From Spirochaetota bacterium (lineage in GTDB: Bacteria; Spirochaetota; Spirochaetia; Treponematales; UBA12059): a DNA stretch of 64,000 nt. Positions 25,338-38,815 of the stretch are shown here, one piece after another. Below the pieces are notes generated by a model. The model was not told the DNA's origin and ran no database searches. It worked only from the letters and a program-made list of their open reading frames with translations. Both the position numbers and the translations under genes were made by a program. Position 1 is the first letter of the stretch. Every line of letters begins with the position of its first letter. The stretch covers positions 1 to 64,000 of the forward strand of contig JADFDI010000012.1 in NCBI GenBank assembly GCA_018262985.1, written 5' to 3'.

Positions 25338-25410
25338 CGGGCAGTAGCGCAGAGGCTAGCGCGCTTGGTTCGGGACCAAGATGTCGGAGGTTCAAATCCT
25401 CTCTGCCCGA
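25338..25410 (+). tRNA. tRNA-Pro (anticodon CGG)
   Basis: The 73-nt cloverleaf has acceptor stem CGGGCAG/CTGCCCG, discriminator A, and anticodon stem CTTGG/CCAAG with loop TTCGGGA, giving anticodon CGG. CCA is not encoded (TTT follows). Its 3' end is repeated downstream in inverted (25482-25500) and direct (25618-25634) orientation. Confidence 0.95.
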
Positions 25411-25481: not shown

Positions 25482-25634
25482 CGGGCAGAGAGGATTTGAA
25501 GCGTAGCGCCGTCACGCAGCGCGCGGATGCGCGCGGAGTGGCGCCGGCGCCAGGAAGGCGCCGGCAGGCGCGGAGACGGGCTTCATGGAGCGCGCACGAC
25601 GCGCGCTCCATGAAGCCAAATCCTCTCTGCCCGA
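25482..25634 (+). repeat. tRNA-Pro-derived hairpin element
   Basis: The element opens with a 19-bp exact inverted copy of the tRNA-Pro 3' end (25482-25500 against 25391-25409). It closes with a 17-bp exact direct copy of the last 17 nt (AAATCCTCTCTGCCCGA, 25618-25634). Inside are a perfect 9-bp hairpin (25543-25551 with 25557-25565) and a perfect 17-bp hairpin (25579-25595 with 25601-25617, loop ACGAC) that abuts the direct copy. The two tRNA copies can themselves pair as a 16-bp outer stem. No protein is supported in 25411-25785. Confidence 0.85.
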
Positions 25635-35638: not shown

Positions 35639-35719
35639 GCCGGGGTGGTGGAACGGTAGACACCGGGGACTTAAAATCCCCTGCCGCAAGGCGTACGGGT
35701 TCAAGTCCCGTTCCCGGCA
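35639..35719 (+). tRNA. tRNA-Leu (anticodon TAA)
   Basis: The 81-nt tRNA has the long variable arm of leucine tRNAs (TGCCGCAAGGCGT). Its acceptor stem is GCCGGGG/TCCCGGC with a G-T pair, the discriminator is A, and anticodon stem GGGGA/TCCCC surrounds loop CTTAAAA. CCA is not encoded (ACG follows). Its 3' end is repeated downstream three times. Confidence 0.95.
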
Positions 35720-35726
35720 ACGAATG

Positions 35727-35756
35727 AACGAAGAGGGCCAACGAGCCCTCTTCGTT
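35727..35756 (+). terminator. Terminator after tRNA-Leu
   Basis: A perfect 12-bp stem (35727-35738 with 35745-35756) with a 6-nt loop follows tRNA-Leu by 7 nt. The T-run is poor (ATTTAT). Its right arm is part of a 29-bp repeat found again at 36015-36043. Confidence 0.75.
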
Positions 35757-35766
35757 ATTTATGGAA

Positions 35767-36049
35767 GCCGGGAAAGGGGCTTGAACCGAGCGGACCCCCG
35801 ACCGGCGCGAACCGGTGAGCGACGGGTGGGGAAAGCGCGCCAAGGATGGCGCGCGTCGGTCCGCGAGGCGGCCCGGAGGCTCCCGCGCACGAAGCGCGGA
35901 GCCGGAGGGAAGTCCCGTTCCCGGCATCAGCGTGAAGCGCTTCGCGCTTCACGGCGCCGAAGGCAAAGGCTTCGGCGATCGCTCGACGCGGCCTCACGGC
36001 CGCCGGCCCACGGACCCTCTTCGACATTTATGGAAGCCGGGAACGGGAC
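35767..36049 (+). repeat. tRNA-Leu-derived hairpin element
   Basis: It contains an inverted copy of the tRNA-Leu 3' end (35767-35787, 19 of 21 matching), an exact 17-bp direct copy of the last 17 nt (AAGTCCCGTTCCCGGCA, 35910-35926) and an exact 14-bp inverted copy (36036-36049). Hairpins fill the space: one with an ACGAA loop in GCGCACGAAGCGCGG just before the direct copy, and a 9-bp one (CGTGAAGCG/CGCTTCACG). Segment 35746-35774 recurs at 36015-36043 with two changes. No protein is supported in 35720-36081. Confidence 0.85.
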
Positions 36050-36081: not shown

Positions 36082-36291
36082 TCAGCCCGTGACGCCCTTC
36101 AGGGTGTACCCGGCTTCGGAGACGGCGGCGGAGAGCGCGGTGTCGAGGAAGCCTTCGCCCTCGACCACAGCCTGGCCGTCGACCACGGTGACCTCGGCGG
36201 ACTTGATGCCCTTGACGCCGAGCAGGGCGGACTTGACGCGCATGGCGCAGTGGCCGCAGCTCATGCCTTCGATCTTCAGGATCTTCTTCAT
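36082..36291 (-). CDS. copZ: Copper chaperone, CopZ-like HMA domain
   Basis: The 69-residue protein is a single heavy-metal-associated domain with the Cu(I)-binding motif MSCGHC near its N-terminus. ATG 36291 follows GGAGG at 8 nt. It is the last gene of the csoR-copA-copZ cluster, 64 bp after copA, and should hand Cu(I) to CopA in the cytoplasm. Confidence 0.92.
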   Translation of the reverse strand: MKKILKIEGMSCGHCAMRVKSALLGVKGIKSAEVTVVDGQAVVEGEGFLDTALSAAVSEAGYTLKGVTG

Positions 36292-36355
36292 GTCGGTTCC
36301 TCCGACGGATTCGGTATCGGACGGCATGCGCCGTCCGGGGCTCCGGCCGCCTTCT

Positions 36356-38815
36356 TCAGGCGCTCGCCTTGAAGCGCCTGAGCCTGAGCGCGTTGGTGAC
36401 CACGGATACGGACGAGAGGGCCATGGCCGCGGCGGCGATGACCGGGTTGAGGAGGGGGCCGCCGAAGGCGTAGAGGAGCCCCGCGGCCACGGGAATGCCG
36501 AGGACGTTGTAGCCGAAGGCCCAGAAGAGGTTCTGGCGGATGTTGCGGATGACCGCGCGCGAGAGGCGCATGGCCGTGGGCACGTCGGTCAGCTCGGAGC
36601 GCATCAGGACGACGTCCGCGCTCTCCATGGCGACGTCGGTGCCCGAGCCGATGGCGACGCCCAGGTCGGCGCGCGCCAGCGCCGGGGCGTCGTTGATGCC
36701 GTCGCCCACCATGGCCACCTTGCGGCCCTCGGCCTGCAGCTTGGCCACCTCGGCTGCCTTGTCGGCGGGCAGCACCTCGGCGAGCACGCGATCGATGCCC
36801 ACCTGGCGGGCGATGGCCTCCGCGGCGCGGCGCGAGTCGCCCGTGATCATGGCCACCTCGATGCCCATGCGCCTCAGGGCGGCCACGGCCGCGGCGCTCG
36901 ATTCCTTGACGGTGTCCGCGACGGCGACGAGCCCGAGCCAGCGGCCGTCGGCGGCCACGATGAGCGGGGTCTTGCCCTCGCCCGAAAGCCGCTCGACCGC
37001 GGCCGCCGCCCCGGAGACGTCGACGCCGGCGGCCGCCATGTGGCGCGCGTTGCCGATGAGGACGGCTCGGCCGCCCACCGCGGCGCGTATGCCATGGCCG
37101 GGCACGGCCTCGAAGTCCGACACCTCGCCGAGGGACAGGCCCCGCGCGGCGGCCGCCTTCACGACGGCTTCCCCCAGGGGATGCTCGCTGGCTTTTTCCG
37201 CCGCGGCGGCGAGCGCGAGGAGCTCGTCCCCGCCCACGCCGGGCGCGGCGACGAGGTCGGTCAGCGCGGGCTCGCCCTTGGTGATGGTGCCGGTCTTGTC
37301 CAGCACCACGGTGTCGATGGCGTGCGCCGTCTCGAGGGCCCCGCCGGACTTGAAGAGCACGCCGGACTCGGCGCCGCGCCCGGTGCCCACCATGATGGCG
37401 GTGGGCGTCGCGAGCCCGAGGGCGCAGGGACAGGCGATGGTCAGCACCGCCACGAACACGGTCAGGGCGAAGACGACGCCGTGCCCGAGGGCCAGCCAGG
37501 TGCCCGCGGCGACGAGCGCGATGACGAAGACCGCCGGCACGAAATAGCCGGAGACCACGTCGGCCATTCGCGCGATGGGCGCCTTCGAGCCCTGCGCGTC
37601 CTCCACCAGCTTGACGATGCGCGCGAGCGCCGTGTCGGCGCCGACCTCGGTGGCGCGGACGGTCAGGGCGCCGTGCTTGTTGAGGCTGGCGCCCACCACG
37701 CGGTCGCCCGGCGCCTTGTCGACGGGCAGGCTCTCGCCGGTGAGCATCGACTCGTCCACGGCGCCCGAACCCGAAACGACGACCCCGTCGACCGGGATCT
37801 TCTCGCCGGGGCGTACCAGCACGAGGTCCCCTGCCTCGACCTCCTCGATCGGCAGCTCCTGCTCGGCGCCGTCGTGGAGCACGGTCGCGGTCTTCGGCCG
37901 GAGCCCCATGAGCTTCTTGATCGATTCGCTCGTGCGGCCCTTCGAGCCGGCCTCTAGCCACTTGCCGAGCAGGATGAGCGTGATGATGACGCCCACCGTC
38001 TCGTAGTAGAGGCTTTCGACCATGCCGTGCTCGCCGCGGGCGATGCCGGCGGTCGACCAGAGGCTGTAGGCGAGCGCCGCCGAGGTGCCGATGGCGATGA
38101 GGGAGTCCATGTTGGGGGCGCGGTGCCAAAGGGCCTTGAAGCCCACGCGGTAGAAGCGCGAGCCCGCTACCATGACGGGGATGACGAGGGCGAGCTGGGC
38201 GAGCGCGAAGCGGAGGCCTTGGTGCATGGGGTCGAGCGCCTGAGGCACGGGCCAGCCGAGCATCATGCCCATGGCCAGGTAGAAAAGGGGGATCGAGAGG
38301 GCGGCGGAGACGAGGAAGCGGTTCTTCAGCGAGCGGATCTCGCGCTCCTTCTCCTCGCGATGGGCGTCGACGCGGTCCGCCGTCTCTAGCGCGCGGGGTT
38401 CGTAGCCCGCCTTGCGGATGGCGTCCTTGAGCGCGGAGACGCGCGTCAGCGCAGGATCGTAGCGCACGGTCGCGCGCTCGGTGGCCAGGTTGACGGACGC
38501 GAGCTTCACGCCGGCCGTGCGCGAGAGCGCGCGCTCCACCGCCGCGGAGCAGGAGGCGCAGGTCATGCCGCCGACGGGGATGACCGCCTCCTTCTCGGAG
38601 CGGTCGTCCACGGCTTCGTATCCGGCCTTCGCCACCGCCGCCTTGATGTCGTCGACTCCCAGCGCGGCGTCGTCGAACGAGACCGTGAGCCGCTCCGTGG
38701 CGAAATTCACCGAGGCCTCGGCCACCCCGCCGAGCTTGCGGACGGCCCGCTCCGAAGCCTGCGCGCAGGATGCGCAGGTCATGCCCTGTATCTTCAGGTC
38801 CAGCGCCTTGATCAT
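36356..38815 (-). CDS. copA: Cu(I)-exporting P1B-type ATPase
   Basis: The 819-residue ATPase has two N-terminal HMA domains (GMTCASC twice, about residues 1-140) and eight predicted membrane helices. It carries the Cu(I) signature CPCALG, the phosphorylation motif DKTGT, SEHPLG and [10 protein letters not shown]. It pumps Cu(I) out of the cytoplasm. It lies 32 bp after csoR and before copZ, so expression should rise when CsoR releases DNA on binding copper. Confidence 0.96.

Follow-up and report, generated by a model that had tools for sequence, protein, structure and literature searches.

A tRNA-linked structured repeat behind tRNA-Leu(TAA) in Spirochaetota, RtT-like in layout

The tRNA-Leu(TAA) gene of this spirochaete (anticodon UAA; 35639-35719, plus strand) is followed by several copies of its own 3' end, raising the question of what kind of element these copies belong to. 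Positions refer to the window, the whole 64,000-nucleotide stretch analysed (contig JADFDI010000012.1, positions 1 to 64,000), and features lie on the plus strand unless stated otherwise. The 17-mer tail of the gene (35703-35719), the source of the copies, occurs four times in the window at up to 3 mismatches against 0.31 expected, while the chance expectation for a 21-mer inverted match is 0.00. A terminator-like hairpin, S (35727-35756, arms 35727-35738 and 35745-35756), stands between the tRNA and an inverted copy of tRNA positions 52-72, I (35767-35787, 19/21 identical), which spans the acceptor 3' strand, the T stem and part of the T loop. A direct copy of tRNA positions 57-73, T (35910-35926, 17/17), closes an outer stem with I. 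Beyond it, at 36015-36049, lie a decayed second S and a second inverted copy (I', 36036-36049, 14/14) without a body, so that the locus reads T (the tRNA tail), S, I, B, T (direct), then decayed S and I. A first-pass annotation of this DNA had reported the exact direct copy, the 19-of-21 inverted copy preceding it and the exact 14-bp second inverted copy, and all three are borne out. It overlooked that the interval between I and the direct copy is filled by a conserved structured body, B (35788-35909), in which P2/P3 close two hairpins, followed by P6, with GA/GA internal loops. The basis given for this body is the Leu-TAA fold (-103.7 kcal/mol, z -5.4), and the unit scores 41.5 bits (E 1.4e-6, filters off) against R2, a covariance model built from 82 units. 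Genes for a small protein with a heavy-metal-associated domain (36082-36327) and a copper-type P-type ATPase (36356-38815), both assigned solely from sequence motifs, lie downstream on the minus strand and run towards the element.

Other proposals of the first-pass annotation fared unevenly. That the element is of a type seen elsewhere, carrying its own tRNA's sequence, holds: Leu-TAA falls into one family with the unit at 25482-25634 behind tRNA-Pro(CGG) (25338-25410), which comprises I (25482-25500), a body and a T copy (25617-25634) and scores 51.2 bits (E 2.3e-7) against R1, a covariance model built from two Glu units. The 29-bp block at 35746-35774 does recur at 36015-36043, but as a 27/29 match rather than an exact duplicate (a longer alignment of 43 nt is 86% identical); the duplicated part is the tail-terminator-inverted-tail that flanks many arrays. 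Growth by unit duplication is plausible and is seen at other loci, but Leu-TAA has a single body. The T copies at Glu-CTC number two in the window's genome but one in sister species G001, and Met-CAT copy number in three congeners is 1, 1 and 2; tandem duplication changes unit copy number. The two altered positions of the inverted copy had been thought to suit another leucine tRNA. Over positions 57-72, compared with the Leu-TAA tail, the inverted copy shows 2, 1 and 0 changes in the window, the sister-species genome G002 and the more distant G001, respectively; the changes therefore represent drift in the window lineage, and descent of I from another leucine tRNA is rejected.

The same arrangement recurs throughout the assembly. 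All 44 tRNA genes were located and the 1-kb flanks of each were scanned for the gene's own 3' 18 nt. Units lie behind nine of the 44, eight with the Leu-TAA-type body and one with another body. Alternating inverted and direct own-tail copies follow Pro-GGG, Gly-TCC, Glu-CTC (two units), Met-CAT, Leu-CAG, Pro-CGG and Leu-TAA, and a Ser-GCT unit, kept out of the tail-copy scan by a one-base shift, was recovered by R2. Pro-GGG (L057, G000:C11:41593) has three tandem units downstream (period 135) with own-tail copies and a different, shorter body that R2 does not recognise, and thus the layout exists with more than one body type. Several tRNAs, Val-TAC and Thr-CGT among them, have just the tail, terminator and inverted tail. 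No own-tail copies were found in the 1-kb upstream flanks of the 44 genes except genuine neighbouring Ser tRNAs. A second type of palindromic repeat (e.g. GGTCGCGAAAGCGACCACGACAATCCATTCC, spaced roughly 75-85 nt) follows several elements, including those at Gly-TCC (L058), Val-TAC (L009) and Thr-CGT (L029).

Units across the family are generally laid out as T, S (about 45 nt, as a rule a terminator hairpin), I, B and T, followed by either another S and I or a partial copy. I is the inverted T-arm, frequently reaching into the acceptor strand, and almost always mismatches the discriminator base. B folds as P2/P3 around hairpins P4 and P5, then P6, with mostly tandem GA/GA internal loops; spirochaete bodies have a conserved CASGANG loop in P6 and a CANGGANG loop in P5. 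At the Ser loci S is not a terminator, S-I-B-T is repeated with a truncated final copy, and I is restricted to the T-arm, while T copies match the tRNA through position 73 in most units.

Folding of the I-B-T strand gives a branched structure; its outer stem consists of the inverted and the direct copy of the host T-stem and tail, and selection maintains this fold. In an 82-unit alignment 93.2% of cells are paired, against 63.1% in shuffled and 33-45% in slid controls; each of the 39 base pairs in the consensus fold has changed on both sides, and double-change cells number 820 against 226 when shuffled. The alignment was fitted to the model, which favours pairing, but the margin is large nonetheless. 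At Leu-TAA itself, I-B-T is identical to that of G002 at 160 of 161 positions, whereas the non-coding flanks retain only 46-57% identity (57% in S, 46% over the following 110 nt) and the mostly coding upstream DNA 89%. The position of S is kept in the sister species at just 57-64% identity. The unit of G001 is 78% identical and has the top R2 score among the window, G002 and G001, and the direct T copy is kept in both relatives.

The element is widespread in the phylum. R1 matches 24 of 39 relatives, and R2, with a cutoff of E 1e-4, matches 43 of 296 Spirochaetota genomes. With the covariance models, 133 units were detected across the Spirochaetota loci examined. Nearly all of them sit just 3' of a tRNA or tmRNA on the same strand, mostly with the tail of that host tRNA; the few exceptions are found at the ends of contigs or follow a displaced tRNA 3' half. 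In the fetched loci, a same-strand tRNA precedes 80 of 92 units, its distance from the model start being typically 50-57 nt. Among the 12 others, some are linked to tmRNA (L108 and L149 by ARAGORN; L087, behind a tmRNA-like 3' end), some are at contig ends, and L110 follows a tRNA 3' half that lacks the 5' half. Among distant members (20 loci examined), 39 of 41 units have a tRNA upstream, the exceptions being L295, behind a displaced tRNA-Gly 3' half, and L299, 78 nt from the fetched edge. A collection-wide pattern scan also matched contigs HGW-Spirochaetae-7, RIFOXYC1_FULL_54_7 and SZUA-438, among others. Literature searches found no published description of such elements in spirochaetes.

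The displaced tRNA-Ala and tRNA-Gly 3' halves (L110, L295) start at the anticodon region and carry the unit along, which is what the distal end of an integrated island should look like. Islands integrated at tRNA genes (attL/attR) likewise duplicate the tRNA 3' end directly from the T-loop, and direct tail repeats of this kind are typical of integrase att sites. That the units are passive remnants of such integration (attR-type tail duplications) is nevertheless highly improbable, even with two units behind displaced halves. The halves carry the unit with them, and the unit therefore predates the displacement. No integrase or cargo lies between the Leu-TAA tail copies, just a 190-nt stretch without a plausible gene, and the extra inverted copy and covarying, conserved folded body are left unexplained; covariation and conservation refute the idea.

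Inheritance bears on a further possibility, that of a small mobile element (a MITE- or REP-like passenger) targeting the T-loop of tRNA genes and duplicating the target tail at insertion. Its host may be any tRNA or tmRNA, the sites occupied inside a conserved Ser cluster vary between genomes, which implies that gain or loss occurs, and the last copy is truncated at varying points. Yet when bodies are compared with those at other loci, in 53 of 76 comparisons (14% at random) the nearest neighbour serves the same amino acid, and it never comes from the same genome. Units of different tRNAs are as similar within one genome (identity 0.49) as between two (0.48), and so the units descend with their tRNA. 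By these comparisons bodies are inherited with the tRNA and do not spread inside a genome. Bodies clustering by tRNA across genera, a structure under strong selection and the finding of no unit away from a tRNA or tmRNA end all make a mobile passenger unlikely. REP and BIME sequences are also short, GC-rich, palindromic and repeated, but the spirochaete units are not dispersed: they are tied to tRNA and tmRNA 3' ends, and the host tRNA sets the outer stem.

In E. coli genetics the RtT or tyrT repeats are a decades-old orphan. At the tyrT locus of E. coli K-12 the order is tyrT, a unit, tyrV and then three units, each of which begins with an inverted T-arm and ends in AATCCTTCCCCCACCACCA, the tRNA-Tyr tail; Rfam calls them RtT (RF00391, gene rttR). 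They follow the order T-S-I-B-T in tandem at 178-nt spacing and are annotated there as the ncRNA rttR. Genomes of Enterobacter, Leclercia and their relatives carry RtT at Pro-TGG and Ser-GGA too, in each case with the tail of the tRNA concerned, and the Pro-TGG unit sits behind a terminator, like the window unit. RtT RNAs are freed from tRNA operons in the course of tRNA processing (PMC4986893). RtT and the spirochaete units share their same-strand position 3' of a tRNA, the inverted T-arm at the start and direct tail copy at the end, a branched body with a CGAGC..GCGAG hairpin, and tandem units with a partial last copy (at other spirochaete loci, the window element being single-bodied). The spirochaete units differ in serving many more tRNAs and tmRNA, against Tyr, Pro and Ser tRNAs in Enterobacterales, in a longer P6, in usually being preceded by a terminator and in having fewer G-U pairs.

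Common descent is another matter. The Rfam RtT model (gathering score 45 bits) gave no match in the spirochaete loci at E up to 5 and 1, although the same search recovered four RtT matches in the E. coli tyrT region; homology is unproven because the model misses the spirochaete units. No other Rfam family relevant to the spirochaete units was found. Conversely, R2 scores 11-16 bits, locally, on the tyrT repeats and has no significant match in six whole enterobacterial genomes. On sequence comparison, the spirochaete element is RtT-like in layout, with RtT its closest known relative, and common descent of the bodies is unproven. A dispersed structured repeat of ~160 nt in Enterobacteriaceae (5375 of 5426 E. 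coli genomes; L152-L160, L175, L281 and further loci) has the P5 hairpin CGAGGCGCANGGANGCGCCGAGAG, and only that hairpin, in common with the spirochaete body. The repeat, whose Enterobacter copies were hit in the collection-wide pattern scan, is generally not beside tRNAs. rtT-like sequences have been reported inside BIMEs (PMC2965389), and the dispersed repeat is possibly the rtT-like BIME cluster of that report.

Whether the fold acts as RNA or as DNA turns largely on G-U pairs, which make up 1.6% of paired cells in the units against 11.7% in tRNA acceptor stems at the same loci. Minimum-energy folding gives G-U shares of 2.7% in units, 7.5% in adjacent terminators, 9.5% in tRNAs and 4.3% in 13 enterobacterial RtT units. 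Between close pairs of units, 150 double Watson-Crick changes stand against 18 single changes to or from G-U, whereas tRNAs show 33 and 35, respectively. Such unusual scarcity would not be expected of an ordinary RNA; it is the chief argument for a DNA-level role and makes that role a serious rival. Single-stranded I-B-T might be the substrate of a recombinase, nuclease or replication-linked process at tRNA T-arms, with T copies regularly exchanged with the tRNA tail and so staying identical. T copies indeed retain identity across positions 66-73 at Ser loci too, although I leaves that part unpaired there, and units lie behind strong terminators, often flanked by them on both sides. However, no associated or partner gene was identified, the E. 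coli analogue has a known RNA, and body inheritance shows no transfer between tRNA families, so this folded-DNA unit is held only tentatively. A stronger version, in which the units form an undescribed phylum-wide class at tRNA and tmRNA ends, independent of enterobacterial RtT, acting as folded DNA (Watson-Crick only) and held identical at their end to the tRNA tail because they keep recombining with the tRNA gene, is more doubtful.

The element at tRNA and tmRNA 3' ends is real, widespread and selected, and a released RNA is preferred over folded DNA as its active form. By analogy, the chances are about even that the Leu-TAA element is one unit of an RtT-type, tRNA-linked structured repeat whose RNA is released by tRNA processing. 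Counted in favour are tRNA linkage with the unit's own tail on the same strand in nearly every match, tmRNA included, together with covariation, bodies that track their tRNA, conservation of I-B-T and the E. coli tyrT layout with its ncRNA rttR; the terminator usually placed between tRNA and unit, the rarity of G-U and the absence of a match between Rfam RtT and the spirochaete units count against it. After the model of E. coli RtT, a transcript would read past the tRNA terminator, cleavage would occur at the tRNA-like 3' end that each T copy presents, and I-B-T would be freed as a small RNA with a tRNA-like 3' end, its body perhaps recognised by a putative partner. Units might be gained or lost through recombination or slippage between the roughly 17-bp T repeats.

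More specific roles were also considered. A tRNA mimic for RNase P is weakened, since the inverted copy at Ser loci covers the T-arm alone and therefore no acceptor helix forms. A CsrA-type GGA hairpin at the P5 loop was discarded, as the P6 loop frequently reads CGA and GGA is missing at that place from the E. coli unit, and a primer-binding site was dropped as well, the CCA complement being absent beside I.

The spirochaete units represent a second, far larger RtT-like population, in another phylum and at many tRNAs and tmRNA, with a well-supported fold and congeners that differ in unit number. With this population, the purpose of RtT becomes a question for comparison and experiment. The fact that tRNA tails have been copied and are retained within a selected structure also bears on how tRNA-linked islands and small RNAs are annotated.
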